From: Magnetococcales bacterium WMHbin3
Lineage (GTDB): Bacteria; Pseudomonadota; Magnetococcia; Magnetococcales; Magnetaquicoccaceae
DNA length: 64,000 nucleotides
Assembly: GCA_002753185.1 (NCBI GenBank)
Contig: PDZX01000005.1
Coordinates: 1 to 64,000, forward strand
Direction of reading: 5' to 3'
The translations under genes were made by a program, and so were the position numbers. Below the pieces are notes generated by a model. It saw nothing but the letters and a program-made list of their open reading frames with translations, did no database searches and was not told the DNA's origin. Within the stretch, counting starts at the first letter, position 1. Every line of letters begins with the position of its first letter. This document shows positions 2,018 to 17,200 of this stretch, piece after piece.

Positions 2018-2139
2018 GGTTCTCTCGACCGGGGAATGGATGCATTGCCTTCCACCGCCAGAAAGACAATCTGGCGCGGACATGACCGTCCGAGGGATTC
2101 AAGCAAATTCCAAGCCGATCCGAGAAAACCGTGGAAAAT

Positions 2140-3033
2140 CTATTTCTCGATCTGGAGTTCGATGGTGGCGGGCTGATTGTCGCGCATCAGGTCGATGCGC
2201 ACCGAGGATTGGGTTTTGAGTTGGGCGGCCAGTTGGGTGATGCGGGGCATGTCGGTCACCGGGATGCCGTTGACCTGACGGATCACATCCTCGCTGGCCA
2301 GACCGATCTTTTGCAGTTCGGATTTGTTGTCCGGAAACTTGACCCGATAGCCGGCGGCATCCTTGCCCTGATAAAACGGCGAAAGATTGACCCCGGTGAG
2401 CAGTTCCATGCCCTTGGCCAGCATGGCGTCATACTCGGCGCGGGGGAGGAGCCGGACGTTGGCGGAGCGGGAGGCGGGAGCGGCGGCTTGCGCCGTCATG
2501 GGGGAGGGATCGGGTTTGCCCACCGGATCGACCATTTCGATCCGCTCCAGCCGTCCCCGGTTGTCGAACAGGACGGCGCGGCGTTCGATCTTTTTCAGGG
2601 TGGCGCCATCCACCTCCTCGCCCACCTGGAGGACGATCTGGACGTTGGGATTGGCCTTGCGGGTGAGCACGGCCCAGGAGAGTTTCGGCAGAATCATGGC
2701 GCCGATCAGGTTCAGGTCCAGTGAGGAGGCCACCGGCGCCGGGGGGGCGGCCTGGACCGGGGGCGGGACCGGTTTTTCCGCGACCCTCTGGACATTTTCC
2801 CAGGGATTGAAACGCCGCAACCCTTCCCGCGCCGCATCCGGGGCGATGACCGGCGCGGCGGGTTTCGCCTTCCGCTCCGGCAGGGCAACAGCGGCATCCG
2901 CGCGTGGAGCCGGGGCCGGCAGCAGCCGCCAGGTCAGGCCGGCCAGTTGCAGTCCGAGCAACCCGGCCAGGAGAAAGGGCACGACCCGCGCGCCCCACTG
3001 GTGGAATGCGGAGATGTAGGAAAGACTACTCAC
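2140..3033 (-). CDS. gspC: Type II secretion inner-membrane protein GspC
   Basis: GspC links the inner-membrane platform to the secretin. The product is 297 residues from a GTG start at 3033. It has one N-terminal membrane segment (about residues 18-36, VPFLLAGLLGLQLAGLTW), a proline-rich linker, a homology region at about 105-170 (LNLIGAMILPKLSWAVL, then GEEVDGATLKKIERRAVLF), and a C-terminal PDZ-like domain with KIGLASEDVIRQVNGIPV. The GTG overlaps the stop codon region of the nuclease-tail fragment upstream. A longer reading frame runs back to 3162, but its extra residues are only the out-of-frame reading of that nuclease tail. The identity is supported both by the domain order and by gspD following immediately. 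Confidence 0.88.
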   Translation of the reverse strand: MSSLSYISAFHQWGARVVPFLLAGLLGLQLAGLTWRLLPAPAPRADAAVALPERKAKPAAPVIAPDAAREGLRRFNPWENVQRVAEKPVPPPVQAAPPAPVASSLDLNLIGAMILPKLSWAVLTRKANPNVQIVLQVGEEVDGATLKKIERRAVLFDNRGRLERIEMVDPVGKPDPSPMTAQAAAPASRSANVRLLPRAEYDAMLAKGMELLTGVNLSPFYQGKDAAGYRVKFPDNKSELQKIGLASEDVIRQVNGIPVTDMPRITQLAAQLKTQSSVRIDLMRDNQPATIELQIEK

Positions 3034-3557
3034 CCAACACCTCTTCCAGGCTGTTGAAGTGCAAAAAACGACGGCCCCATCGTTGCAGGCTCGGCCAGTC
3101 GGCAAAATGCACTTTTTTGCGCAGCGCTTCCGGGAGTTCGCCAAACCTGTCTTCGAGTTCAATGATCAACAATGAGGAGGCACCTTCATTGAACAATCTC
3201 TCGTGTGCACGAGGCAGGTTCGGATCAAAATTCAACATTTGCAGGATCTCCCTGACCGGATGCGAACGCGTGACATGCCAGGCTGTGAAGATTACTCACC
3301 AAACACCTCTTCCAGGCTGTCCGTACGCAAAAGACGATGACCCCATCGTTCCACGCTTGACCGATCCGCGAAAAACACTTTCTCGCGTAGCGCTTCCGGC
3401 AGTTTTCCAAACTTATCTTCAAGCAGGAATAAAAACAATGAGGAGCCACCTTCTTTAAATGCTCGCTCGGTGGCACGAGGGAGGTTCGGATCGAAATTCA
3501 ACATTTGAATGATCTCCTCGACTTTGAGTGCATGAAAACGTTCCACAGCAAACAAAC
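3022..3557 (-). repeat. Diverged tandem duplication, 266-bp period
   Basis: The 3' end of the Rpn-like gene is present twice in tandem. The words ttcaacattt (3231-3240 and 3497-3506), the cluster cacctcttccaggctg and the stop-flanking ctcacc(c/a)aacacc all recur with an offset of 266 bp. After each copy's stop, the minus strand reads GTGAGTA(A/G)TCTT, and the copy nearer gspC supplies the gspC start codon. Divergence between copies is visible throughout, with no simple truncation point. Confidence 0.8.
3026..3238 (-). pseudogene. Duplicated C-terminal fragment of the Rpn-like nuclease gene
   Basis: This 70-codon open stretch repeats the last 70 residues of the neighbouring gene at 3292-4155. 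Both begin MLNFDPNLPRA, share LPEALR and end SLEEV(F/L)GE. Identity is high but not complete, so the duplication is not recent. The homology continues upstream of the ATG, in frame, through REILQ against EEIIQ, and no separate start signal is obvious. It is therefore probably a non-functional remnant, or at most a small orphan tail domain. The tail resembles the DUF4351-type module (LP..L...V..A....W..R.L..SLEEVF). Its stop overlaps the gspC GTG start. Confidence 0.75.
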
Positions 3558-4155
3558 CCAAAATCTCCAGCGCTGCCTGATACCGATCATCTGGAAAATT
3601 TTCCTTTATCGCTTGCCGCCAAACGTATCCCTTGTGTTGCAACTGCTCCGGTTCGATATGCGGATGCATGGTCAATGGTGCCATAATCAGCAAACGGGGA
3701 TCAATCTCTTTCAACCGTTCTTCGGAAAAATCGGAGAGCACCACCTCCACGAAGCACTCCTCGAACCGGCATCCCTGGCCCCTGACCATGGGGGTCAATG
3801 GCAGGGCGGCGTTGCGAAAGGGCGCATCCGTATAGATGATGCCCGCCAGGACAGGGCCGGGGTAGTTCTCCTGCATGCAGGTCATGAACACTTTCGCGGC
3901 AGTCCGATAGCGGACGAAAGGGTCCGCATAGCCCTGGAATTCCAACAGAATGCGCGGATGTTCCCCGGACACCAACGACCATCCCTCGACATCCGGAAAG
4001 AGGCGCTTCTGTTTCAATACCGTGGCGCGAAACTGGTAAGTCGAGGCGATTTGCGCATCCATCCCCAACAGTTTCAACAAGGCATCGCCGCTCAAAGTCA
4101 TGAGCTTGAGAAAAACCTCATCCGTGCCGCGCTGGCCGAATCGCTCGTCGATCAT
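3292..4155 (-). CDS. Rpn / PD-(D/E)XK nuclease-like protein with DUF4351-type tail
   Basis: The 287-residue product belongs to the broad group of transposase-like Rpn/YdaD proteins with a PD-(D/E)XK fold. The likely nuclease core lies in HPRILLEFQGYADPFVRYR, where ExQ fits the second acidic motif, and it is followed by a helical segment and the C-terminal module ending DSLEEVFGE. The ATG at 4155 overlaps the stop of the upstream adhesin gene (ATGA), so translation is probably coupled. The reading frame extends further upstream only as a shadow of that gene. Known Rpn proteins promote recombination in E. coli, and some act in phage defence; here the function is unproven. It sits inside a secretion operon, which suggests it is a passenger. 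Confidence 0.75.
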   Translation of the reverse strand: MIDERFGQRGTDEVFLKLMTLSGDALLKLLGMDAQIASTYQFRATVLKQKRLFPDVEGWSLVSGEHPRILLEFQGYADPFVRYRTAAKVFMTCMQENYPGPVLAGIIYTDAPFRNAALPLTPMVRGQGCRFEECFVEVVLSDFSEERLKEIDPRLLIMAPLTMHPHIEPEQLQHKGYVWRQAIKENFPDDRYQAALEILGLFAVERFHALKVEEIIQMLNFDPNLPRATERAFKEGGSSLFLFLLEDKFGKLPEALREKVFFADRSSVERWGHRLLRTDSLEEVFGE

Positions 4156-7100
4156 GCGCCGCCAGCCAATCGCTTGCGCCTTGCCAGCCAGGCCAGCGCC
4201 AGGGCGGCCAGGAACAGGGCCTGCGCCATGCCGGGGGCTTCCAGCAATAGCCAGCTCAACGCAATGAACGGCAGCAACGCCACCCGCACCACGGCACGCC
4301 AGCCGTCGTGGCCGCGCAGCCAATCGGCCATGCCGGGGGAATAGGTGTAATAACGGTCCACGAACCAGGCGCCGGGGGAATTGCTCAGCAGGAAACGATC
4401 CCGGAAGCGACGCAGCAGTTGCACCTGCGAGGCGTCATAGGAACCGTAGGCCGCCGTGGCGATGAAGCAGCCGCCCTTCTTGCCGCTGTCGCTGCTGCCG
4501 CCACCGCCGCCTCCCCCCGTGGAGGCGGCAGGGGTATCCACACCCGGCACCACCACGGAAAAGTGCTTCATGTTGATGGTGACCTTGCCGGTGGCCGGGT
4601 TGTAGGTCGCGCCGGTGAGGGTCTCGACATTGGTGTTGGCGAGAAAATCCTGCAACGTGGGCGCGGTATAGATCCGCAGTTTGCCGTTGATGGTGCTCAC
4701 GTCCGAAGATCCGGCGGCGCTGATCAGGGTATCCACCTTGACCGGAATCTCGACAGGGATGCCAACCTTATCATTGATAAGAGTGTTGCCGGAACCGGTG
4801 GCCAGCAGCGAACCGCTCTTGTTGAAGGCCACCAGGTCGATCTCCACCACCTCGCCGCCGGTTAAAGAGGTGCGGCTGGCGGTGGTGGCACCGGCGGTGG
4901 TGGTATCCAGTTTGGCGGCGCGCACCGAGGTGAAAACCTCGGCCACGTCCGAGGATGCGAAGGCGTTGGCCGGCACCTCGACCTTGACACTCTTGACCGT
5001 GGTGAGATTGGCGGCGGAAGAGAGGTCGAAGGAGGCCGGGGCCGCGCCCGCCACCATGGCGGACGGCGGCGCGGTGACGATGGCCCCGCTCACCATGGCG
5101 GTCTGGGCCGTGGAGAGGGGCTGATGGACCACGGGCGCGGAGACGATGGCTCCGGTGGCTGGGTCCTTCATCACCAGGATGACCGGATCGTTGGCCGAGG
5201 CCGTGGAAGTGGCGGACTGGGGCTTGGCGGCCTTGGTTCCCGCCAGACCCGTCGCCGCGTCGGTGAAGGTATCGGCGAAATCGGAGGGTTTCTTGGCGGC
5301 CAGGGTGGCGATTCCCTCCTTCTGGGCCGTGGTGATGACCGGGATTTTCTTCAATTCGAAGGTGTTGCCGCCGAACGACCCCTGCCAGACATTGCCGCTC
5401 ACCGCGACACAGGTGGTCTGGGTGGTCAGGGTGGTTTGCGCCGTACCGCTGGCGTTCACGCAGCCGGCGGTGGCGTCGGTGACCGGTCGGCTGACCAGGA
5501 TGGCGTCGGTGGCGGTGACGTTGATGCGCACCGGGGTGAAGGCAGCGGTATCGAGCCACAGGGTGAAGGTGGAACCTTCGATGCTCCCCTCGACCACATT
5601 GCCGTTGGCGTCCAGCGCCTTGACCGACGGGGAAGCGCCGGAAGTATTGACGAGGGTGCCGGTATACTTCATGGGCGCGCTGATCTTGCGCAGGGTCACG
5701 GTGCCGGAGGTGTTCGGGTAGGTGATGGTGAGGCTGCCCGACTGATGGGTGGTGGTGGAGACGGGCACCACCTCGAAGGAGTAGGTTCCGCCGGTGGGCA
5801 GGTTGATGGTGGCCTGGCCGTTGGCGTTGGTGGGATCGATGGCGATGGAGGTCAGGCCGTAATCGCTGGCCTGACCCTTGAGGGTCACCTTGGCGTTGGC
5901 CAGGGCGACTCCAGAGGTATCGTTGACCTGAATCGTGTAGGTGGCCATCGGCAGGATGGTGATCGAATCCGAGGTGACGCTCGCCCACCCCTCGGTGGAA
6001 TCGGCATTGCCGGCCTGGAGAACCGCCTTGACCTTCATGCGGGTCTGGGCGGTGAGGGTGTTTTTCGGCGCAATATAGGCGGTGGCCGGATTGCCGGAGG
6101 CGCTCAGGGTGGTCGAGGCGCTGCCCCCGGCGGTGGCGGCAAGCCCCGCGATGGCCCCGGAGGTATCCGCGACGCCGTTGCCATCCAGCACCGAGAACTT
6201 GAAGGCGTCGCTGGCGGCCCCGCCGGTCACGGTGACATAATTGGAAGTATCCGTGCTCAACTGGATCGCCTCCTTTACTGCGATCTTGAACGGCACGTTG
6301 ACGGTGATGGTCTTGGACAGGCCCGCCGAAGCGTCGCTGACCGTGATGGTGTAGGTCCCGGCGAAGGCCCCGGTGGAGGGCGCGGTAAAGGTATAAGCGC
6401 CGTCGCTGCCCGCCGTGAGGGTGGCCGCATAGCTGCCAGGTCCGGAGATGGTCACGGCATAGCCGCTGGAGCCGCCCGCCGGGGTGAATTTCAGCCCGTC
6501 GCCGCTGGCCACGGTGCGCGCGGAGGAGATCTCGCCAGCGGCATCCGTGACGGAGAGCGGTCCCAGCACGACGACGGTCAGGGTCTGGGTGACATCGGTG
6601 AGATCCTTGTCGGCGATGGTGATGACCGTGGAGCCGGTGGCAACCGCCGTCACCACGCCGGTGGAGGAGACCGTGGCCGCAGCCGGGGTGGCGGAGGCAT
6701 AGGTGAACCCGTTGCCCTTGCCGCCGCTGGCGGTGATGGTATAGCTCTTGTTGGAATCGGTATCGAGATAGACCTTGCCGTCGGTAGCAGTCTGAGAGGT
6801 GACGGTGATCCCCTGCACCACGGTGATTATTTCAGTAGTTTTTTCGTTAGCAGTTTTGGAAACTCCATTATAGGTGGCGGTATCGGCCACCTTGACGGTA
6901 AAACTCCCGGCGGCGACGGCGGTGATGGTGCAGGTGCTGCTGGTGGCGGTAGCGGTGACGGTGGCCACGGCGGTATCGCTGCTGGTGCAGGTAAAAGAAC
7001 CGTTGCCGCCGGTAATGAGCAGCGGCAGGGTCTTGCCGATGACCATGCCGGTGGCCGAGGTCACGGAGGTGGCGACCGGGGCGTAGATGGTGATGGCAGC

Positions 7101-10100
7101 CGATGCGGATACCGCGCTGCCGCCGATGGTGTCGGAGGCGGTGAGGGTATCGGTGGCGGCGGCGGATCCGGCGGTATAGGTGACCGAGTCCCCGGTTGTG
7201 GCGCTCAGGGTGCCGGAGGACTTGCTCCAGGTGGTGGAACTCCCTCCCCCGCTGGCGGTAAAGACCTTGGTATCCCCGCCCACCAGGGTGACCGAGGTGA
7301 CGGAGAGGGAAAACGGGGAAAGCGTGACCTTGACGTTGGTGGCGTTGACCGAGCCGCTGGCGGCGCTGACGGTGATGTCGTGGGGGGTGGTATCGGTGAC
7401 AGCCACGCTGGTGAGGGTGGCGCTGGCGACGCCGTTGGTTGGGTTCACCTGCTTGGAGGTGGTGCCAGCGGTGTCGAAATAACCGTAAGTGGCGGCATCG
7501 ATGGAGAAGGCAACCGCCGTGGTCGCGTTGGTCGCCACGTTGCCGTAAGTATCCTTCAACGTCCCGGTGAGGGTGACGGCGGTCGAGGTGAAGGAGCTGA
7601 CCGAGGAGGTGCTGGCGGTCAGGGCGAGTGTGGTCGGGGTGGCCGGGTTGGCGGTGATGGCGAAGGTGGCGTTGGTCAGGGTGCCGTAGCTGGCGGTGAC
7701 CGTGATGTTGCCGGCGGTTTCGCCCAGGGTGAGGGTGACCGAGGCCAAGCCGCTGGCGTTGGTGGTGGCGGTTTTGCTGGTGGTGCCCGCACTGTCGAAA
7801 TAAGCCCCCTTGCCACTGGTGGAACTGGTGTTGGAGGAGATGGAAAACGTCACCGTCTCGTCGGCGAGCGGGATGGCGGTGCCGTTGGCGTCCTTGATGG
7901 TGGCCTCCAGGGCGACCGTGCCGCCGCCCACCGTGGCCGAGCCGTTGTTGCCGGTGGTGGCCGCGATGCTGGCCGGGGCATACACCGTGATGGCCGCCGT
8001 GGTGGAGACCGACTTGCCGATGCTGTCGGTGACGGTTAGGGTGACGGCCTTGCTGGTCCCGCTGATGGAACTGGGCGCGGTATAGGTCCCCCCGGTGGAA
8101 CTGCTGGAACTCATGGTACCGGAATCCACCGACCAACTGGCCGCGCTGGTGCCGCCAGTCAGGGTGAAGGCCTTGCTCTGGCCGGTCATCATGGTGTGGG
8201 TCGTGGGAGTCAGATAGAACGGCGTGAGGCTGATGGTTTGATCCGTCACGCTGGAGGCGGCGATGGAGGTCGTGGAGGCGTCCGCCGTGATGGCATGGCT
8301 GGTGGTGTCCGTGGTGGCCAGGGCCACGCTGGTCAGGGTGGTGGCGGCGACGCCGTTGCTGGGGGTCACCTGCTTGCTGGCGGTGCCGGAGGTGCCGAAA
8401 TAGCCGTAGGTGGAGGCGTCAACGGTGAAGGTCACCACCGAGGTATCGGTGGTGGCGACATTGCCGTACTGGTCCTTCAAGGTGCCGGTCAAGGTCATAT
8501 CGGTGGCGTGGTAGGAACTGACCGTGCTGGCGCTGGCGCTCAGTGCCATTTGGGTGGCCGATCCCGGATTCGCCGTGAGGCTATAGGTGGCGGCGGTCAG
8601 GCTGCCGTAGCTGGCGGTGACCGTGATGCTGCCGGAGGTTTCGCCCATGGTGAGGGTGACCGAGGCGACACCGCTGGAGTCGGTGGTTGCGGTTTTGCTG
8701 GTGGTCCCGGCAGTGGTGAAATAAGCCCCCTTGCCGCTGGTGGAACTGGTGTTGGAGGTGATGGCGAAGGTCACGCTGCCGTCGGCCACCGGAATGGCGC
8801 CGGAGGCGTCCTTGAGGGTGGCCGTCAGGGTGACGGTGCCGCCGCCGACCGTGGCCGAACCGTTGTTGCCCGTGGTGGCATCGATGCTGGAGGGGGCATA
8901 CACCTTGATGGCCGCCGATGTGGAAACCGACTGACCGCCCAGGGTGTCGGTGACGGTCAGGGTGACCGATTGGGGAGAACTGCCGGTGATGGTGGCAGGC
9001 GTGGCATAGGTCCCCCCGGTCGCGCCGGTGCCGCTCAGGGCGCCGTTGGTGCTCGCCCCCACCGACCAACTGGCCGCGCTGGTGCCGCCGGTCAGGGTGA
9101 AGGCCTTGCTTTGGCCCGCCAGCAGGGAGACGGTTGCCGGAGAAACCGAAAACGGCGCCAGTGTCACCGTGAGGTCGGTCACGCTGGAAGCAACGATGGC
9201 CGTGGTGGAGGCGTCCACGGTGATGGTATGGCTGTCGGTGTCGCTGCTGCTCAGGGCCACGGACTTCAAGGTGGCGGTAGCGACGCCGTTGGTGGGGGTA
9301 GACTGCTTGGTGGTGGTGCCAGAGGTATCGAAATACCCATAGGTTGCGGCATTCACGCTGAAGGTGACCGCCGAGGTGTCGGTTGTCGCCACATTGCCGT
9401 ACTGGTCCTTCAAGGTGCCGGTCAGGGTGACATCGGTGGCGGTGTAGGAGCTGACCGTGGAGTGACTGGAACTCAAAGCCAGTTGCGTGGCGGTTCCGGG
9501 GTTGGCGGTGACGGTATAGCTCGCGGCGATGAGGGTTCCGTAGGTGGCGGTGACGGTGACCGATCCGGAGGTCTGCCCCATGGTCAGGGTGGCGGAGGCC
9601 ACGCCGCTGGCGTTGGTGGATGCCTGTACGCTGGTGGTCCCGGCACTGGTGAAATAGGCCCCCTGGCCACTGGTGGCGCTGGTATTGGAGGTGATGGTGA
9701 AGGTCACGGTGCCGCCGGAGACCGGAATGGCATTGCTGGAACCGTCCTTCAAGGTCGCGGTCAGAGCGACGGTCCCGCCGCCCACGGTGGCCGATCCGCC
9801 GTTGCCGGAGGTGGCCCCGACCGTGGAGGGCATATAGACGGTTATGTCGGCGGTTTTCGAGACGGATTGTCCGCCAACCGTATCGCTGACCGTCAAGGTA
9901 ACCGACTTGGAGCTGCCGCTGAAGGAGGTGGGCGCGGTATAGGTGGCCCCGGTGGCGCTGGTATTGCTCAAGGTGCCGTTGCCGGAGTCCACCGACCAGG
10001 TGGGGGAGTTGCCGCCGCTCAGGGTAAAGGTGGTGCTCTGCCCTGCCAGCAGGGAGATCGTGGTGGGACTCACGGCGTATTCCACCACGCTCAGGCTCTT

Positions 10101-10712
10101 GCTGCCCGTGGTATACTCCGCTATCGTTGAGCCTTTATTGTCGGAAACCGCGATGAATTTCGCGCTGACCGTGGAGTTGCCCACGGTGGCGCCAGTTTTG
10201 GCCACTAATTTAACGGTAAAAAATTGATAATTGGAGACGACCGCGCCGCTTTGGTTGAAACTCCCGGTGCGGGTGTAGTTGACATAGGCCTGTCCTGAAG
10301 TCCCATACAGGGGATCCCCGCTCGCATCGCTATCGGAAAGGCGCAGTTCCATAAGGTCCGATGCGGCAGGAGTCCAGATCATGGTGATGCGGCTGTTGTC
10401 GTCATTTTGCTTGTTGCCGAATTCACCGTCCAGATAGGCCGTGGCATGAGGATCATTGTCTCCCGCCGTGCCCAGGGTGGAAGAGCCGTCGAGGGCGAAG
10501 ACATTCTTGTCCCATTGCAAGACGATGCCCGCCGAGTTGAAGCTGGTGGCCCCGGAGGCGTTGGCGGAAACGGCCACGGTCACGTTCACCGTGGAGCCGA
10601 TGGCAACCGAATCCGCGCTGCTGGTTACCGAGAGGCTCCCTCCCGTGGCCGCCAGGAGATTGCCTGGCAAGAACAAAAAAGATAACAATATAATAAAATA
10701 ACGGATGATCAT
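4152..10712 (-). CDS. Giant surface protein: cohesin-like domain, Big_1 Ig repeats, CFI-box C-terminus
   Basis: The 2186-residue product has a signal peptide (residues 1-22, hydrophobic core IIRYFIILLSFLFL). Residues 26-205 resemble a cohesin domain: GSTVNVTVAV, then the strand GIVLQWDKNVFAL, and later FFTVKLVAKTGATVGNS. From about residue 215 come three near-complete copies of a ~309-residue unit, each with SLLAGQ(S)-type Ig and Big_1 motifs (TLTGTLKDQYGNVAT). A degenerate fourth copy, further Ig-like domains and a carboxypeptidase-regulatory-like segment follow. The C-terminus has a glycine linker, the motif GGCFIATAAYGS near residue 2082, charged helices and a hydrophobic stretch ending in arginines, the layout of CFI-box-CTERM proteins. 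The ATG at 10712 is preceded by GAGGGA, and the dockerin-bearing gene ends 10 bp upstream. It is probably exported and surface-held; cohesin assignment is by pattern only. Confidence 0.85.
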   Translation of the reverse strand: MIIRYFIILLSFLFLPGNLLAATGGSLSVTSSADSVAIGSTVNVTVAVSANASGATSFNSAGIVLQWDKNVFALDGSSTLGTAGDNDPHATAYLDGEFGNKQNDDNSRITMIWTPAASDLMELRLSDSDASGDPLYGTSGQAYVNYTRTGSFNQSGAVVSNYQFFTVKLVAKTGATVGNSTVSAKFIAVSDNKGSTIAEYTTGSKSLSVVEYAVSPTTISLLAGQSTTFTLSGGNSPTWSVDSGNGTLSNTSATGATYTAPTSFSGSSKSVTLTVSDTVGGQSVSKTADITVYMPSTVGATSGNGGSATVGGGTVALTATLKDGSSNAIPVSGGTVTFTITSNTSATSGQGAYFTSAGTTSVQASTNASGVASATLTMGQTSGSVTVTATYGTLIAASYTVTANPGTATQLALSSSHSTVSSYTATDVTLTGTLKDQYGNVATTDTSAVTFSVNAATYGYFDTSGTTTKQSTPTNGVATATLKSVALSSSDTDSHTITVDASTTAIVASSVTDLTVTLAPFSVSPATVSLLAGQSKAFTLTGGTSAASWSVGASTNGALSGTGATGGTYATPATITGSSPQSVTLTVTDTLGGQSVSTSAAIKVYAPSSIDATTGNNGSATVGGGTVTLTATLKDASGAIPVADGSVTFAITSNTSSTSGKGAYFTTAGTTSKTATTDSSGVASVTLTMGETSGSITVTASYGSLTAATYSLTANPGSATQMALSASASTVSSYHATDMTLTGTLKDQYGNVATTDTSVVTFTVDASTYGYFGTSGTASKQVTPSNGVAATTLTSVALATTDTTSHAITADASTTSIAASSVTDQTISLTPFYLTPTTHTMMTGQSKAFTLTGGTSAASWSVDSGTMSSSSSTGGTYTAPSSISGTSKAVTLTVTDSIGKSVSTTAAITVYAPASIAATTGNNGSATVGGGTVALEATIKDANGTAIPLADETVTFSISSNTSSTSGKGAYFDSAGTTSKTATTNASGLASVTLTLGETAGNITVTASYGTLTNATFAITANPATPTTLALTASTSSVSSFTSTAVTLTGTLKDTYGNVATNATTAVAFSIDAATYGYFDTAGTTSKQVNPTNGVASATLTSVAVTDTTPHDITVSAASGSVNATNVKVTLSPFSLSVTSVTLVGGDTKVFTASGGGSSTTWSKSSGTLSATTGDSVTYTAGSAAATDTLTASDTIGGSAVSASAAITIYAPVATSVTSATGMVIGKTLPLLITGGNGSFTCTSSDTAVATVTATATSSTCTITAVAAGSFTVKVADTATYNGVSKTANEKTTEIITVVQGITVTSQTATDGKVYLDTDSNKSYTITASGGKGNGFTYASATPAAATVSSTGVVTAVATGSTVITIADKDLTDVTQTLTVVVLGPLSVTDAAGEISSARTVASGDGLKFTPAGGSSGYAVTISGPGSYAATLTAGSDGAYTFTAPSTGAFAGTYTITVSDASAGLSKTITVNVPFKIAVKEAIQLSTDTSNYVTVTGGAASDAFKFSVLDGNGVADTSGAIAGLAATAGGSASTTLSASGNPATAYIAPKNTLTAQTRMKVKAVLQAGNADSTEGWASVTSDSITILPMATYTIQVNDTSGVALANAKVTLKGQASDYGLTSIAIDPTNANGQATINLPTGGTYSFEVVPVSTTTHQSGSLTITYPNTSGTVTLRKISAPMKYTGTLVNTSGASPSVKALDANGNVVEGSIEGSTFTLWLDTAAFTPVRINVTATDAILVSRPVTDATAGCVNASGTAQTTLTTQTTCVAVSGNVWQGSFGGNTFELKKIPVITTAQKEGIATLAAKKPSDFADTFTDAATGLAGTKAAKPQSATSTASANDPVILVMKDPATGAIVSAPVVHQPLSTAQTAMVSGAIVTAPPSAMVAGAAPASFDLSSAANLTTVKSVKVEVPANAFASSDVAEVFTSVRAAKLDTTTAGATTASRTSLTGGEVVEIDLVAFNKSGSLLATGSGNTLINDKVGIPVEIPVKVDTLISAAGSSDVSTINGKLRIYTAPTLQDFLANTNVETLTGATYNPATGKVTINMKHFSVVVPGVDTPAASTGGGGGGGSSDSGKKGGCFIATAAYGSYDASQVQLLRRFRDRFLLSNSPGAWFVDRYYTYSPGMADWLRGHDGWRAVVRVALLPFIALSWLLLEAPGMAQALFLAALALAWLARRKRLAGGA
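7300..10070 (-). repeat. Three tandem ~927-bp coding repeats (Ig/Big_1 modules)
   Basis: Within the giant adhesin gene, a unit of about 309 codons recurs at roughly 10070-9144, 9143-8220 and 8219-7300. Each starts near (S/T)P(T/A)T(I/V/H) and LLAGQS or MMTGQS and includes GNNGSATVGGG(T), TSGKGAYF, DQYGNVATTDTS and TYGYFDT. The match is close at the DNA level in places. The fourth copy (from about 7300 down) keeps only the first part. Such repeats are prone to recombination and copy-number change. Confidence 0.85.
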
Positions 10713-10722
10713 GGATTGTCCC

Positions 10723-13209
10723 TCATTTGATGGCATCAATCGTACTCCGCACCGTGGTATTCGTTTGTCCGGAAGGGAGCACCACCCCGGTGGTGATGGT
10801 GGATGCCCCGTTCAGACGCCGCAGAATCAACACGCCGTCCGTGGCGTTCACGCCCCCGCTCTTGTCCACATCCAACCCCAGGGCGAAGCCATCGATGGTG
10901 GCCTTCACCGTGGTATTCGTCTGTCCCGATGGCAGCACCACCCCGGTAGTGATGGTGGAGGCCCCGTTCAGGCGGCGCAGGATCAGCACGCCGTCTGTAG
11001 CATTCGATGTGCCACTCTTGTCCACATCCAATGTCACGCAGGTGCTCCCCCCGCTGTAGGTGACCGTCACCGATGAGGCCGCGCTGCTCTGCTTGCCGTC
11101 GCTCACGACTAGTGAAAACACATAATCCCCATTGCAGACTGGTGAAAAAATGGGTTTTTGCTCTGTATTGGAGGAAAGAGCAACAGCGGACCCCGGCGGC
11201 TGGCTGGTGACGGTCCAGGCATAGGTCAGGCTGGGGTCGTCCGCGTCCGAGGAGGAAGAGGCGTCCAGGGTGACGGTGCCCGGCACGGTCACGGTCTGAG
11301 AGGAACCGGGATTGGCGACCGGCACATGATTGGTGATCACCGTGACCGTGGCGGGGGTGGCGCTGGCGAAAAGCCCGTCGTTGACCGTCAGGGCAAAGAC
11401 CATGGTGGCGGCGGTGTTGGGGGCAGTGAAGGTCGGTTTCACCAATGCACTGGAAGAGAGCGTCACCGCCGGGCCGGAGGTCTGGGACCAGAAATGGTTC
11501 AGGGTGGTCCCGGCGTCCGCGTCCGAGGAGGCGGAACCGTCCAGGGTGACGGTGGATCCAGGGACGACATACTGGTTGGCCCCCGCGTTGGCCACCGGAC
11601 GGGTGTCGGCGGTGATGGTCACGGTGCTCGTATTGGTGCTGTTTTGCAGACCGTCGTTGACCACCAGGGAGAACACATACGGCCCCGCCACGGTCGGCGT
11701 GAAGGTGGGATTGGCGGCGCTGGACGAGGAGAGGGTCACCACCGGCGAAGCGGGCGCGGTCTGGGTCCAGGCGTAATAGCGGGTGTCGCCGTCCGCGTCA
11801 TAGGATCCCGTGCCATCCAGGGTGGCCACCTCCCCCACCGCCACGGTCTGGGCGGACCCGGCGTTGGCCACCGGCGGGTTGTTGGCCGTCACGGTGACGC
11901 TCTTGGCCTCCGAGACGACCTTGCCGTCGTTGACCACCAGGGAGATCACGTAATTCCCCTTCACGTCCGGGGTGAAGGTGGCAAGGGGCGGGCTGCCCTG
12001 GCTGATGGAAGACAAGGTCGAGCCGGTCGGCTTGCTGACAATGGCCCAGGTGTAAGTGGTAAGCGTATCCCCGTCCGGATCCGAGGAGTTGGCCCCGCTC
12101 AAGGTCACCGGGCTACCCGGAACCGCGAAAAAATCGCTGCCAGGATTGGCCACCGGGGCGTTGTTGCTCCCCGCCGCCGCGTTGACCGTGATGGTCAGCG
12201 AGGCCGATGCGCTATTATCGTAACCATCGCCGACCATAAGAGTGAAAAGATAACTGCCGGCGGTCTTGGCCACCACGGTCTGGGAGACCCCGGACAGGGT
12301 GGCATTCACCCCCAGGGCCACCCCGTTGGCGCTGATGTCGGCATTGGCCGGCATGGAGGTCAGGGTCCAGGTGTAGGACGCAACGGCATCCCCGTCCGGG
12401 TCGCTGGAGGCGGAACCATGGAAGGAGACCGAGGCCTGGCCATTGCTTAAACTCACGGTCTGATCCCCGGAGGCCGTGGCCACGGGGATCTGGTTGGTGG
12501 AGGTATATTTTTCCAGTGTTGTCGCCGTCTTGGACCAGGGCAGGCCGTTGGTGACCTTCAGGTCATAGACCCCCGGCGCGGTCCCGGCGGGGACCGTGGC
12601 GGTAATCTGGCCGGAGTCGATCACGGTGACGTTGGTCAAGGCCACTTCCGCCAGGGCGACCGGACCACTGGGAGTGGAACGCTTGCCGTTCACCAGCCGG
12701 AGCGTGGCCCCGTTCATGAAATTGCTGCCACGCACCGTGACGTTCTGGGCGGACGGGTGCGCCCCGGAACCGGGCGCGATGGGGGTCGTGGCATCCAGGG
12801 TCGGCGCGCTGTCCAACGGATACGGACCGGCGCGGGTGATCCCGGTGGCACCGACGATCCCGGAAGCGTCCGCAGCCCGAATGTAAAAATACCAGGTCCC
12901 GTCCGCCTGATCCGGCAGGGTCAACGTGGTGGCCCCGAAGAGCAGACCACGCTGGTTTTCGAAGGTGACGGCATCCATGGTGGCGGAACTGCTGATGGCG
13001 TATTCATAGAAGATCCCCGATTGATCCGAGGTGGCCGCAGTCCAGGAAAACCCCATGGCGCTGTTGGACGAGGCAACCGAGGCCGTATGCGTGGTGCTGG
13101 TCACCCCGTTGACCGACGGACCATTGGTGATCGCGGCCCATGCCCCGGAAACTGGCGGGAGCATCAACAGCAACCCCAACAATGCGGATGTCACTCGTCG
13201 CGCCGACAT
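10723..13209 (-). CDS. Secreted PKD-repeat protein with two C-terminal dockerin-like repeats
   Basis: The 828-residue product has a signal peptide (residues 1-25, ending SGAWA). An N-terminal beta domain follows, then an IPT/TIG-like segment (NVTVRGSNFMNGATLRLV) at about 155-230. About five PKD/REJ-type repeats come next, each with (P)VA(N)AG..(Q)TV and SSDPDGD. The last 102 residues are two 50-52-residue repeats. Each holds the loop DVDKSG....ATDGVLILRRLNG, which matches the dockerin calcium loop D-x-D-x-S/D-G-x5-D followed by an F-type helix. The neighbour downstream carries a cohesin-like domain, so the two products may bind each other through calcium-dependent cohesin-dockerin contact. 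That is inference; there are no catalytic domains to suggest a cellulosome. Confidence 0.85.
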   Translation of the reverse strand: MSARRVTSALLGLLLMLPPVSGAWAAITNGPSVNGVTSTTHTASVASSNSAMGFSWTAATSDQSGIFYEYAISSSATMDAVTFENQRGLLFGATTLTLPDQADGTWYFYIRAADASGIVGATGITRAGPYPLDSAPTLDATTPIAPGSGAHPSAQNVTVRGSNFMNGATLRLVNGKRSTPSGPVALAEVALTNVTVIDSGQITATVPAGTAPGVYDLKVTNGLPWSKTATTLEKYTSTNQIPVATASGDQTVSLSNGQASVSFHGSASSDPDGDAVASYTWTLTSMPANADISANGVALGVNATLSGVSQTVVAKTAGSYLFTLMVGDGYDNSASASLTITVNAAAGSNNAPVANPGSDFFAVPGSPVTLSGANSSDPDGDTLTTYTWAIVSKPTGSTLSSISQGSPPLATFTPDVKGNYVISLVVNDGKVVSEAKSVTVTANNPPVANAGSAQTVAVGEVATLDGTGSYDADGDTRYYAWTQTAPASPVVTLSSSSAANPTFTPTVAGPYVFSLVVNDGLQNSTNTSTVTITADTRPVANAGANQYVVPGSTVTLDGSASSDADAGTTLNHFWSQTSGPAVTLSSSALVKPTFTAPNTAATMVFALTVNDGLFASATPATVTVITNHVPVANPGSSQTVTVPGTVTLDASSSSDADDPSLTYAWTVTSQPPGSAVALSSNTEQKPIFSPVCNGDYVFSLVVSDGKQSSAASSVTVTYSGGSTCVTLDVDKSGTSNATDGVLILRRLNGASTITTGVVLPSGQTNTTVKATIDGFALGLDVDKSGGVNATDGVLILRRLNGASTITTGVVLPSGQTNTTVRSTIDAIK
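10726..11031 (-). repeat. Tandem dockerin-like coding repeat (about 156 bp, two copies)
   Basis: Copies at about 11031-10876 and 10875-10726 encode near-identical stretches (DGVLILRRLNGASTITTG and VVLPSGQTNTTV in both). Synonymous differences are present between the copies. The two-fold repeat is the normal architecture of a dockerin, which has paired F-hand calcium loops, although each copy here is longer (50-52 residues) than a typical 22-residue dockerin segment. Confidence 0.8.
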
Positions 13210-13312
13210 TGTCCCGAAACCAAATCGAACTGGTGAAAAGAGGAAAAATTTGCCCGCTGGCGGGGCACACGACCAAGATCAATGCATCTTCCAGGCCAGA
13301 GACCACAACCCC

Positions 13313-14290
13313 TCAAGGCTGCCCGGAACGGGTTGCCCGCTCCTGGGCACGGCGGATTTCGAGTTGCCGCATGGCGGCCCGCTGGTCGGCCTCGTTGCGC
13401 GCGCGACGGGTGACCTCGCTGCGTTGCGCCGCCTGATCGCCACTCACGAGGGCCTGCCCCCGGTTGGCCATCTCGCGCTCCGAGGTCTGTTGCGCAGCGG
13501 GCGTCGCGACCTGGGCCAGCGTCGCTTCCAGACGTTGCAGGTTTGCTTGCTCCACCAGCAATTGGGATTGCGCATTCCGCTCGCTGCGCGCCTGTTGTCG
13601 CTCCAGGGTGACCCGTTGCTCCAGCAACACCCTGGCGTCGCCCTGACCGGCAGCCAGTTCGCCACTCACGCGGGAGATTTCGTTTTGCAGGGCGCGCCGT
13701 TCCCCCTCGGCCTGGCGCTGAATGGCCACGATGCGTCCCCGTGTCGCAACGATGGCCGCCATCACCCGCGCCGGCGCGTTTGCCGCCAGGGGATCGATGG
13801 ACTCGATACGAGCCGCAGATCCGCCACCGGGAGCAGGAGAGGGTCCCGATGGCGGAGTCTGCGGTCGCGCTTGCGGAGGTATTGAATGTTGGACAGGCGC
13901 GGCCACCATTGGTTCCTGAAAATGTTCCGGGCCGATGCGCTCGAAACGCCCCGCCTCGGCAACCCCACTGCGCAACACCTTGACCTGCCGGATGATCAGC
14001 CGTCCAGACGGATCCCTGCCATACAAAAAGCCATGGCTGAAGCCGGACAACAGCCGCCGCAACCCCTGCAACAACGGCAGATCGGCGAAACGAACCGTCA
14101 CGCTGGCCTGAATCGCCGGATCGAGCAGAAACACCACCCCGGTCCTGGCCGCCACCCGCTCCAGGGCGCTACGCAACGGCGCCTCCCGCAAGGTCACGCC
14201 CAGCCGGCCATCGGCATAAACCACCCCGTCGTCCGCCCTGGCCACCCCCACCAGGCCGAACAGGGCCACAAGCAACCCAAACCAGCGCAT
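13313..14290 (-). CDS. Secretin/TonB short N-terminal (STN) domain protein with coiled coil
   Basis: The 325-residue product has a signal peptide (1-19, ending GVARA). An STN/N0-like domain at about 24-105 follows: LGVTLREAPLRSALERVAARTGVVF, shown in parts as LREAPLRSAL and PLLQGLRRLLSGF. Next come a proline-rich linker and a long glutamine, arginine and alanine-rich helical region (about 185-325) likely to form a coiled coil. STN domains occur at the periplasmic entrance of secretins and TonB receptors, so this may be a periplasmic adaptor for the type II system encoded downstream. It has no beta-barrel or secretin core. Its ATG is one base after the stop of the giant gene upstream, so the two are almost certainly co-translated. 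Confidence 0.75.
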   Translation of the reverse strand: MRWFGLLVALFGLVGVARADDGVVYADGRLGVTLREAPLRSALERVAARTGVVFLLDPAIQASVTVRFADLPLLQGLRRLLSGFSHGFLYGRDPSGRLIIRQVKVLRSGVAEAGRFERIGPEHFQEPMVAAPVQHSIPPQARPQTPPSGPSPAPGGGSAARIESIDPLAANAPARVMAAIVATRGRIVAIQRQAEGERRALQNEISRVSGELAAGQGDARVLLEQRVTLERQQARSERNAQSQLLVEQANLQRLEATLAQVATPAAQQTSEREMANRGQALVSGDQAAQRSEVTRRARNEADQRAAMRQLEIRRAQERATRSGQP

Positions 14291-14291
14291 G

Positions 14292-17200
14292 TCAGTTCAA
14301 CGTCAGGTTCAAGGTGGTCCCGCCCGCCACCGCCGTGGCCCCGCCGGAGCCATACCCGCTGGCGGCACTCCAGTTGCCGGCCTGCACCTTGGCCGACGAG
14401 AACGCCTTCAGGGTGTAGGCCTGGTTCGGATTCAGGCCGTCCAGCCGGTAAAGGCCGGCCCCATCGGCCACGACGCGCTTGCGCTCCGCGCCGCCTGAGT
14501 CATAGGCGATCACCATGGCCCCCCCCGCGCCACTCCCGCCCGACAAGCTCACCGTGCCGGAGATGACCCCGCCCGCCTTGGCCAGGGTCATCGCCACCCC
14601 CGTCCGATCGGCCCCGGCGAGGGTCAAGGTGGCGGATGCCTCCCCTTCCCCATTGCGCACGTCCACCCGGTAGTCGCCATCGGGCAGACCCTCGATGGCG
14701 AACGCGCCACTGGCGTTGGTGAGCGCGCTCCCCCCCACGCGCCCGCCGTCGGACCAGGCGTTGACCACCACCCCGCCCGCCGGGCCGCTGCCGCCGGTCA
14801 CGCTCCCGGCAATCGCATGACCCGGCGTCATGGGGATATTCAGCCCGGTGGTGTCGCCAGCCACCGTCACCGTCCCCATGACATTGGCGTCACTGCTCCA
14901 GTTCACCGTGCTCACCCGGTTGGCCGACACGCTCACCGAACCGGTATGCTTCGTGACATAACCGGCGGCTCTCACCTCCACCGTGTAGTTGCCCGCCGGC
15001 AAGCCGGTCAGGGTGAACTCGCCATTCCCGGTCAAGGCAGCCGTGGCCCCCGCCGTGGCGGACCAGGCGCGCACCTCCACCGCCCGATCCCCGCTCATCT
15101 CGCTCACCGTGCCGGACAGGGTGTAAAAACGGTTGCCCGTCAGCGCCACGTTGAAATCGATGCCGGTGGTGACATCCCCCCCGCTCACCGTCACCTGGGT
15201 GTGGCCGCTCCAAACCGGAGTCGCCCCGCCGCTGGCGTAAAACACCCCCGCATTGCCCCGCCACACCCCGACCACGTAATCCTCCCCCGCCGGCAGCCCG
15301 CTCAAGGCATAGGTGGCCACGCCGGAGGCGTCGGCCAGGGCGCTCCCCACCACCCGCACGTCCAGGGATGGGGACCAGGCGTCCACCCGCACCCACTCCC
15401 TGGCGTTCAGGCCGTTGATGCCCCCCGTGATCCCGCCCCCGGTGGCGGCGCTGAAATTCACCTCCGTGGCCGGCGCGCTCACCCCGGTGCGCTTTTGCGG
15501 CAGATAGCCGTCCGCCTGGAAACTCACCCGATAATCCGCAGCCACGCTCAACCCCTTGACGGCATAGGCATCCGACCCCTCGATGGCGCTGCCGCCCCAG
15601 GAGTAGGTGGCATTGGACCACGCCTCCACCCGCCCCGGCCTGCCCTTGGCCACGCCACTCACCGTGCCTGAGATGGAACTCCCGGAGGCGACCGCCATGG
15701 CGATGGTCCCATCCCCGTTGCGCAGATCCACCAGAACGGCGTTCTTCCAATCCCCGACCGGCTGGCCCTCCCCGGCATAGGCGCCATTGGTCAGCGTCTC
15801 GCCCCGGATGGAGACCCGGTAATCGTCCACCGCCCGCAACCCCTTCAACACCACCTGTCCGTCCACCACCTCGCCGCCGCCGGAAGCGCCGCTCCGCTCG
15901 GAAAAGGCGTCCACCCAGGCCCGCGCCCCGCTGGCAAGCCCGGTCACCGTGACGGTCAGCTTCCGGCCAGGCGAGACCGCCACCGCCACATAACGATCGC
16001 TCGCCATGTCGAGCAGGGTGGCCCGATCCCGACCCACCAGGCCGCCAGGGGTGGCCGGATAAGTCGTGGCACTCACCGTGCCCTGGAAATTCCCGCTGGC
16101 AAAGAGCGCCCCCGGACCGCCGACGAACAACCGGTAGTCGTTGCCAGCCGGGTCCAGCCCCTTGATCTCGGCCACGGCCACCCCGGAGGCGTCCGCCGTT
16201 ACCTGCCTGGAGCGACCCTTGTTCCACTTCTCCGACCAGACGTTGAGGTCCGCCGCCGCGCCCGCCTCCAGGCCGGAGACCTTGACCCGCAAGGTCCTGG
16301 TCGTGCTGGCGGCGAGGTTGATGGCCACCCCGGTCACGTTGCCGGCCAGGGTGTTCAACGCCACCGCCTTCTCCCACCCCACCGGACCCAGCCCGGAACC
16401 GCCGTAATAACCGCTCGGCAGATCCTCGGCGGCCCCGCGCCACTCCAGCCGATAGTCGCTCGCCTGCACCAGCCCGGAGATGGTGAAGACATCGCTCCCC
16501 GACCCGCCGCCGGTCACCTCCGCGCCGCCCCAGGCCTGCTCGCTCTCCGACCAGACCGACAGCCGCACTTTGGCACCGGCACTCAACCCGGCGATGGTTC
16601 CGCCGATGGAGGCCCCGGAGCGCAACACGAAATCGACGCCCCCAGGATTCTTGCCCGCCGATGCATCGATGAGGGTGGCATCCCCCTCCCGGCCCGCATT
16701 ATTGAAATAGGTCGTGCGAAAGCGGCCATTCATGCCCCACACCACCCCCAGATAATCGCTGCCCGGGGCCACGGTCACCTTGTAATACCCCTGGGCGTCG
16801 GTGTTGGCCCCGTACCAGCGGCTGCCGTCGCGGGCATGGATGTCCACCCAGACCCAGGGCAGGCCGGCGTTGTTGGCGTCGGTCACCCGCCCGGAGATGA
16901 CATTGCCGCTCGACACGGCGAAATCCACCGGCACCCCGCCCCGTGGATCCCCCAGCAGGATCGCGCCGGCCAGCGGCTCTCCATTCCCGCCAGGACGCCC
17001 CTTGTCGATGGCATGCACCGCCACCACCCCGGCCTCGGTGACCTGCACCATGACCGGAGCGGGGACCACCAGCCGATCGCTCCACAGGTTCACCTCATAC
17101 CAGACCGATACCCCGGCAGCCGGCCTCGGCACCTGGATGGCGTAACCGCCGTTGGCGTTGGTGGAATCCCCCGCGCCGATCCCGGCGGCATGGGACCAGG

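Follow-up and report, generated by a model that had tools for sequence, protein, structure and literature searches.

The window analysed here covers positions 1 to 64,000 of contig C41 from Magnetococcales bacterium WMHbin3, whose genome (G000; 4.6 Mb in 157 contigs, 93.1% complete) carries beside a type II secretion locus two adjacent genes that probably encode a cohesin-dockerin surface display system. The genes of this locus all lie on the minus strand, in the order giant 2711-amino-acid (aa) protein, 325-aa protein, 828-aa PKD-dockerin protein, 2186-aa scaffold, DUF2887 protein, gspC and gspD. The gene for the 828-aa protein (10723..13209), defined by its open frame and a profile scan, encodes PKD/Ig repeats (11059..12462; PF22352 199 bits, PF18911 88.5 bits) followed by a C-terminal tandem dockerin (10726..11034), recognized by PF00404 and by our own profile A4, with loops that start at 11028 and 10872. 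The scaffold gene (4152..10712) encodes a signal peptide, a cohesin-like domain, Ig-like repeats, a CFI-box-CTERM domain and a hydrophobic tail; its ATG at 10712 lies 10 bases beyond the stop codon of the 828-aa gene, and its own stop codon ends at 4152. A previous sequence-only reading of the window had placed the PKD gene at these coordinates, 10 bp from the 2186-aa gene, and both statements hold. The scaffold begins with a putative 21-aa Sec signal peptide (10650..10712), which was judged by eye and shows a hydrophobic peak; that of the 828-aa protein was likewise judged by eye. The cohesin-like domain follows directly (residues 22-206; 10095..10649), being assigned from a sub-cut-off PF00963 match and a predicted fold. 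Profile scans of the remainder of the scaffold identified Ig-type repeat families, mostly under their own cut-offs.

The two dockerin-style repeats that the sequence-only reading saw at the end of the PKD protein were borne out by profile analysis. When the last 112 aa of the 828-aa protein were isolated, they matched PF00404 (Dockerin_1) with 26.0 bits, above the cut-off of 22.9 (E 1.1e-5); in a six-frame scan of the genome the same dockerin scored 19.9 bits, or 25.2 counting its neighbour. All six orthologous dockerin segments matched PF00404 at E <= 1, the best at 3.6e-10. Profile A4 was built from the dockerin segments of the six operon neighbours of the cohesin gene, and its top matches in the PDB were cellulosomal dockerins (1ohz_B, E 1.4e-5); a comparison of the segments with NCBIfam gave no dockerin-domain match among the families listed. 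The window's dockerin consists of two units 52 aa apart that are identical at 42 of 49 residues, their DNA being 78% identical over 147 bases. It is the sole tight-type dockerin found with profile A4 in the window's genome, where L022 gave a weak match (E 0.72). Two further dockerin-profile matches in this genome, L003 and L004, were considered as additional clients and rejected, as they are EF-hand-like segments without the tandem unit.

A type I dockerin contains two calcium loops with the residues D1, D3, D/N/S5, G6 and D12. Profile A4 located 36 dockerin places, from which we counted the 26 of the tight type (E 1.0e-26 or stronger) and left out 10 looser ones with a different motif (E 2.5e-14 or weaker); the counts also leave out PF00404 places that A4 missed in genomes G005, G010, G014, G015 and G025. 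The looser places (L077-L086) are found in G003, G004, G005 and G008; the proteins that bear them include M10-like and FGE-like ones, and no cohesin partner was identified for them. By pattern search, each of the 26 tight-type proteins contains exactly two loop units. The pattern fixes position 12 as D and restricts position 1 to D/E/N and position 3 to D/E, so the free positions 5 and 6 are the informative ones. Across the 52 units, S/N/D5 is present in 50 and G6 in 44, with D1 in 50 and D3 in 51 partly by construction; the two loops thus have the type I residues, positions 1, 3 and 12 being constrained by the pattern. A chance EF-hand match was rejected as the origin of the signal, given 52 units with strict spacing. 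Over 22 positions, unit similarity is 80% between the halves of one protein (26 proteins) and 68% across proteins (1300 pairs), and this greater likeness of halves within a protein is as in dockerins that have an internal two-fold symmetry. The module is C-terminal in 21 of the 26 proteins, internal in three and directly after the signal peptide in two, a varied placement as expected of a portable module. The two N-terminal cases are large proteins, L066 (6988 onward) and L068 (18-3437), one of them with a C-terminal Lcl_C domain.

The cohesin-like start that the sequence-only reading gave the 2186-aa protein was upheld at the level of the predicted fold. AlphaFold2 run on six sequences produced a model of the window's domain with a pLDDT of 75 and a pTM of 0.77; the loops are poor, the longest spanning residues 57-86. 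A Foldseek search of the PDB with this model listed 50 rows, of which 46 belonged to entries for cohesins, cohesin-dockerin complexes or scaffoldins, with a best E of 1.6e-5 and with the cohesin chain in complexes deduced from chain length; the other four were one CLIPPER domain (9ifr) and three integrin chains. The predicted structure thus has the cohesin jelly-roll fold, with low confidence at residues 57-86, and we consider the cohesin fold of the scaffold N-terminal domain well supported by this model. At the sequence level, four of the six orthologous cohesin-like domains matched PF00963 at E <= 1 (best 1.9e-5), and the G005 orthologue exceeded the PF00963 cut-off with its neighbours counted (25.5 bits). 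With PF00963 at E <= 1, the window's genome yields no match other than the scaffold domain (E 0.077). At E <= 0.01, PF00963 recovers three of the six genomes that have the domain, the window's genome not being among them.

The C-terminus of the scaffold, on which the sequence-only reading made no comment, is a CFI-box-CTERM domain (4263..4469), with an NF041770 score of 91 bits against a cut-off of 40; it is the single NF041770 match at E <= 1 in the window's genome. Beyond it come hydrophobic stretches, seen as Kyte-Doolittle peaks, and then a basic tail, which together constitute a putative membrane anchor (4182..4301). With this domain and the hydrophobic tail at its end, the 2186-aa protein is probably an anchored scaffold. 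The sequence-only reading had the large protein held by its cohesin; more likely, it offers its cohesin and is held by its C-terminal end. That reading also stated that glycosidase domains are absent, which stands in substance: no catalytic glycosidase family appears among the profile matches listed for the window proteins, the only related domain over its cut-off being an accessory C-terminal one in the scaffold with 'glycoside hydrolase' in its family name (PF18565, 36.3 bits, cut-off 32). In the open-licence PMC literature nothing was found under 'CFI-box', nor for '8X39' with 'serine protease'.

We compared the locus with those of related genomes. The cohesin domain was found in six of 100 genomes searched, five of one genus (including the window's) and G030, from another family. 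In all five relatives the scaffold gene contains the CFI-box motif and lies between a PKD-dockerin gene, which comes before it, and gspC, which comes after; the PKD-dockerin proteins are 47-63% identical to the window's protein (5/5) and the gspC products 41-52%. Giant proteins that are 35-49% identical head the operon in four of the five relatives, the contig of the fifth being cut there. Four relatives (not G030) have in addition a gene of about 300 aa between the PKD-dockerin and scaffold genes, which encodes a cohesin-like domain plus a tandem dockerin. The best structural matches of the N-terminal domain of this small protein are cohesins (E 3.4e-7), its model being usable in the cohesin-like half only.

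The two modules are also distributed together. Across 48 Magnetococcales genomes, the cohesin domain was found in six (E <= 0.01) and the A4 dockerin in seven (E <= 1e-4), these being the same six and G003; the tight-type dockerin is present in exactly the six cohesin genomes, G003 having the looser type only. Fisher's exact test on the 48 genomes, with G003 counted, gives p 5.7e-7, a statistic that ignores kinship. Within the genus (11 genomes), the cohesin is found in five and the dockerin in the same five plus G003 (p 0.015, again ignoring kinship). When the search was extended to 398 Pseudomonadota genomes, the 48 included, the cohesin was still found in six and the A4 dockerin in seven at E <= 1e-10. 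Because the members of A4 are themselves encoded beside the cohesin in its operon, the comparison leans towards co-occurrence.

An informative contrast comes from G023, a genome of another family that contains a syntenic operon (L118, 1186-8184) in which the giant protein aligns at 34%. The alignment of its PKD protein with the 828-aa protein covers residues 1-722 of the latter (38%, E 1e-108), whose dockerin begins at residue 728. Its Ig scaffold aligns to the window scaffold only from residue 250, beyond the cohesin domain, and the sorting signal at its C-terminus is a Synerg-CTERM (22.9 bits against a cut-off of 22.5), not a CFI-box. Searches of the G023 PKD and scaffold proteins with cohesin alignment A3 and profile A4, with HMMER filters off, gave nothing above chance (best 0.22 per domain; 0.096), and Pfam at E <= 10 listed nothing for the first 170 residues of the scaffold.

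We also examined which proteins carry the dockerin in the relatives. Tight-type dockerin proteins number one in G000, two in G030, three in G008, four in G005, six in G010 and ten in G004 (n=26); ten are encoded inside the operon and the remaining 16 outside it. Ten of these 16 have a peptidase domain that exceeds its Pfam cut-off (M10 in four, S8 in three, and trypsin, C13 and C2 in one each); in the other six there are RCC1 repeats, an FGE-sulfatase domain, modules of the Lcl_C or Ig-like kinds, or minor modules. At E <= 0.01 the 16 proteins, two of which (L066 and L070) are incomplete frames, gave no match to a catalytic glycosidase family; L069 contains an accessory chitobiase C-terminal domain (CHB_HEX_C_1). 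These data suggest that the relatives use the dockerin as a general tag on apparently secreted proteins, mostly peptidases.

We consider it likely that the locus encodes a calcium-dependent, non-cellulosomal cohesin-dockerin system for surface display beside a type II secretion locus. The computed results on which this interpretation draws are the dockerin family match, the predicted cohesin fold, the adjacency of the two genes, their conserved order, their co-distribution, and the failure of profiles to detect either module in G023; from these we infer binding, calcium dependence, surface location, anchoring, use of this secretion system and the role of an adaptor. The 2186-aa protein would cross the inner membrane by means of its signal peptide and then be brought to the surface, the type II secretion system encoded nearby being the probable route; there its CFI-box-CTERM and hydrophobic tail would retain it, and an Ig-like stalk would hold the N-terminal cohesin outward. 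The PKD protein of 828 aa would be exported with it and would dock on this cohesin through its calcium-loaded tandem dockerin. In the relatives one scaffold may be the receptor for a set of tagged exoproteins, peptidases and others, and the small cohesin-like plus dockerin protein could be an adaptor. Genetic co-occurrence makes the scaffold domain a candidate partner of the dockerin, which it would bind in a calcium-dependent manner, and the gene neighbourhood makes these proteins candidate substrates of type II secretion, the export route that the sequence-only reading had proposed. The sequence-only reading had arrived at a non-cellulosomal pairing of a dockerin with a neighbouring cohesin-fold domain, which is now backed by the co-distribution, by the order in five of five relatives and by the G023 operon in which both modules go undetected.

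Several observations weigh against this interpretation. The isolated cohesin-like domain of the window scored 16.3 bits with PF00963, under the cut-off of 24.1 (E 0.011). The Foldseek TM-scores by query are moderate (0.36-0.53), and PF00963 at E <= 1 matches one of four small-protein N-domains. A sequence search of the PDB gave three weak matches with cohesin alignment A3, none of them a cohesin, and no match with A5. By hhalign the cohesin alignments matched two Pfam-matched cohesins with probabilities of 4% and 32%, and A3 matched A5 with 13%, all of these alignments being very shallow. As to the dockerin, PF00404 gave 17.2 bits in a scan of the whole 828-aa protein, below the cut-off of 22.9, and among the 16 tagged proteins outside the operon, full-protein scans put Dockerin_1 over its cut-off in four (L062, L065, L068 and L072). 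In the model of the small protein the pLDDT of the dockerin half is below 50, leaving the dockerin fold without structural confirmation. A classical dockerin is a compact module of 60-70 aa. In the tight-type proteins the loops are 51-63 aa apart and the module covers about 102 aa, the unit being about twice the classical length; this spacing marks a long dockerin variant that lacks the classical compactness.

The distribution of the modules also includes cases that do not fit. G003, a genome that is 77% complete, has looser dockerins, one of them on an M10-like protein, without this cohesin; PF00404 is over its cut-off in G025 and G015 and below it in G014, these being Magnetococcales without this cohesin. 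No PF00963 match at E <= 0.01 was found in G003, G025, G015 or G014. A Dockerin_1 match in G025, at G025:C258:6-242, reaches 39.4 bits. A close gspC (E below 1e-30) is present in ten of the 48 genomes, namely the six with the cohesin and G036, G023, G045 and G040, so four of the ten are without this cohesin and an obligatory tie between gspC and the cohesin was rejected; in G036, G045 and G040 different genes lie upstream of gspC. The G023 contrast concerns one locus and one event at most. The N-terminal 140 or so residues of the G023 scaffold, to which no domain was assigned, may be a much diverged cohesin, and the scaffold of L012 aligns with that of G023 from residue 187 onwards, so that the alignment takes in the final 39 residues of the L012 cohesin domain (42-225).

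Some of these observations are also those expected if the scaffold N-terminal domain were a beta-sandwich that caps the stalk or forms the tip of an adhesin, with the dockerins binding another, undetected cohesin or some other ligand. The sub-cut-off sequence score would then be explained, as would the Magnetococcales that have dockerin matches and no cohesin found; the CnaA-like CLIPPER domain (9ifr) also matches the model, and the available passages of its description (PMC12617251) make no mention of cohesins. We nevertheless think this explanation improbable, since cohesins dominate the list of fold matches, the one PF00963 match (E <= 1) and the one tight-type dockerin of the window's genome are neighbours, and the modules co-occur elsewhere and are both undetected in G023.

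The proximity of both modules to gspC and gspD, together with the C-terminal position of the tag in 21 of 26 proteins, would also suit a dockerin-like tandem that is a calcium-folded tag for export, stability or sorting and is read by the secretion machinery, its company with the cohesin being explained only by a shared operon and secretion route. Such a role is poorly compatible with a module that directly follows the signal peptide in two proteins and is internal in three, with the four close-gspC genomes in which neither module was found at the thresholds used, or with G023, which has the operon and gspC with neither module detected, and there is in our judgement little chance that it is correct. 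It is quite unlikely that the pair acts between cells, an anchored cohesin catching dockerin proteins of neighbouring cells or matrix to cause aggregation, as might be supposed from the cohesin/dockerin adhesion proteins proposed both for syntrophic sulfate reducers and for the ANME that partner them (PMC10553843, in the passages available), since peptidases make up ten of the 16 tagged proteins encoded outside the operon and scaffold and client share one operon. The alternatives overlap, and the likelihoods we attach to them do not sum with that of the surface display system.

To place this system among others, we searched the 398 Pseudomonadota genomes with the Pfam profiles. PF00963 matched in eight genomes at E <= 0.01 (two over the cut-off) and PF00404 in 22 at E <= 0.001 (21 over the cut-off), G000 and G030 not being included among the latter. 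A dockerin gene adjoins the cohesin gene in five of the eight cohesin genomes: G005, G010 and G030, which have the present system, and G293 and G367. The remaining three (G146, G204 and G275) have no PF00404 match at E <= 0.001, the neighbours of their cohesins lying outside this count. In G293 (L122, 4652-8361) a reprolysin-like (M12B-type) peptidase with a dockerin is followed by a cohesin with a PEP-CTERM (29.0 bits, cut-off 20.7). In G367 (L123, 4828-8126) an ExeM/NucH nuclease with a dockerin is followed by a cohesin-like protein (22.2 bits, below the cut-off) with a hydrophobic tail. The name of the NCBIfam ExeM model ends in GG, and proteins of that model presumably carry a GlyGly-CTERM anchor; if so, the G367 dockerin would stand in for this anchor. 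Both pairs resemble the present one in that a dockerin-bearing extracellular enzyme is encoded directly upstream of the cohesin gene, but differ in having a compact dockerin, a cohesin protein of 188-194 aa and no gsp genes noticed in 13 kb.

The clostridial cellulosome comprises scaffoldins with cohesins, enzymes with dockerins and adaptor scaffoldins, with cohesins in tandem and glycosidases as clients. The present system shares with it the cohesin fold (here predicted), tandem calcium loops of type I character, an anchored scaffold (here putative) and a portable tag on many exoenzymes, and the small cohesin-like plus dockerin protein of the relatives resembles an adaptor scaffoldin. It differs in its Gram-negative host, in the one cohesin found per scaffold, in the dockerin unit of about 52 aa, in having a CFI-box-CTERM rather than Gram-positive anchors, and in clients that are mostly peptidases, with no catalytic glycosidase in the tagged proteins scanned. 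A classical cellulosome was rejected on the basis of the single cohesin found in the scaffold and of the lack of catalytic glycosidases among the tagged proteins scanned.

Non-cellulosomal precedents are closer in several respects, as far as the available passages of the sources describe them. The cellulosome-like complex of Ca. Stygibacter (Cloacimonadota) has, as here, dockerins on peptidases (there S8 and gingipain-like) and a scaffold with a C-terminal sorting domain, but also tandem cohesins, carbohydrate-binding modules, glycosidase clients and a CTD, whereas the present scaffold has one cohesin and a CFI-box-CTERM and lies in a gsp locus (PMC8542988). In the likewise Gram-negative syntrophic sulfate-reducing bacteria that have ANME partners, adjacent non-cellulosomal cohesin and dockerin domains have been proposed to belong to adhesion proteins; they are read as serving partner adhesion, and the passages describe neither tagged peptidases nor a secretion locus (PMC10553843). 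Non-cellulosomal cohesin-dockerin systems are also reported from ANME archaea (PMC5244752), and dockerin-like and distant cohesin-like motifs were noted in Saccharophagus without tests (PMC2386152). The use of the pairing in a proteobacterium, which the sequence-only reading called uncommon, is indeed uncommon, yet it has Gram-negative precedents in the portions seen of two of these reports (PMC10553843, PMC8542988) and in G293 and G367. No description of the present arrangement was found among the papers listed from the open-licence PMC literature, judged mostly by titles and the starts of abstracts.

A broader hypothesis, which we advance tentatively and hold to be somewhat doubtful, is that dockerin tags replace individual surface-sorting signals in the Magnetococcales and perhaps in other Pseudomonadota. 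One sorted scaffold would carry the cohesin (with CFI-box-CTERM here and PEP-CTERM in G293) and the dockerin would be placed on secreted peptidases, nucleases and matrix proteins, giving a modular, calcium-switchable proteolytic complex at the surface that is fed by the linked type II secretion system. In this bacterium, a docking principle otherwise seen chiefly in cellulose degraders may keep proteins of a quite different sort attached to the cell. The locus offers a compact case for testing, since the window's genome has a single cohesin match and a single tight-type dockerin, encoded side by side in one operon, with relatives in which the tag has spread to peptidases, and with the G023 operon, where neither is detected, as a control. 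If the surface display system is confirmed, it would represent a Gram-negative mode of display in which portable tags replace dedicated anchors, and would provide a new and possibly orthogonal cohesin-dockerin pair for protein engineering.

The remaining genes of the locus flank this pair on both sides. The giant 2711-aa protein (14292..22427) is encoded at the head of the operon and is followed by the 325-aa protein (13313..14290), for which STN and GspD-N0 matches were both below their cut-offs. In L016 a homologue of the 325-aa protein (38%, E 1e-46) is encoded ahead of the giant gene, as is a partial one in L015, so the operon place of this gene varies. Between the 325-aa and 828-aa genes, at 13251-13267, there is a terminator-like hairpin with a T-run that may separate transcripts; such sites are consensus matches only, with 14 in the stretch against 8.4 expected. 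The sequence-only reading had gspC and gspD in the same run as the pair, which is correct except that a DUF2887 gene (3292..4155; PF11103 40.6 bits, cut-off 24.1) intervenes between the scaffold and gspC, its start codon overlapping the scaffold stop codon. By eye, an apparent partial second copy of the 3' end of the DUF2887 gene precedes gspC (window 3050-4155), and in the five relatives there is no space for a DUF2887-type gene between scaffold and gspC. The gspC gene (2140..3034, start approximate) was identified by profile (PF11356 37.6 bits, cut-off 27) and by alignment A6, and gspD (2..2083), an open frame that runs off the contig end, was identified by eye. The window's genome has one more GspC-like match, a divergent one (L115, G000:C53:2824-3423; E 6e-11), which suggests a second secretion-type locus there.

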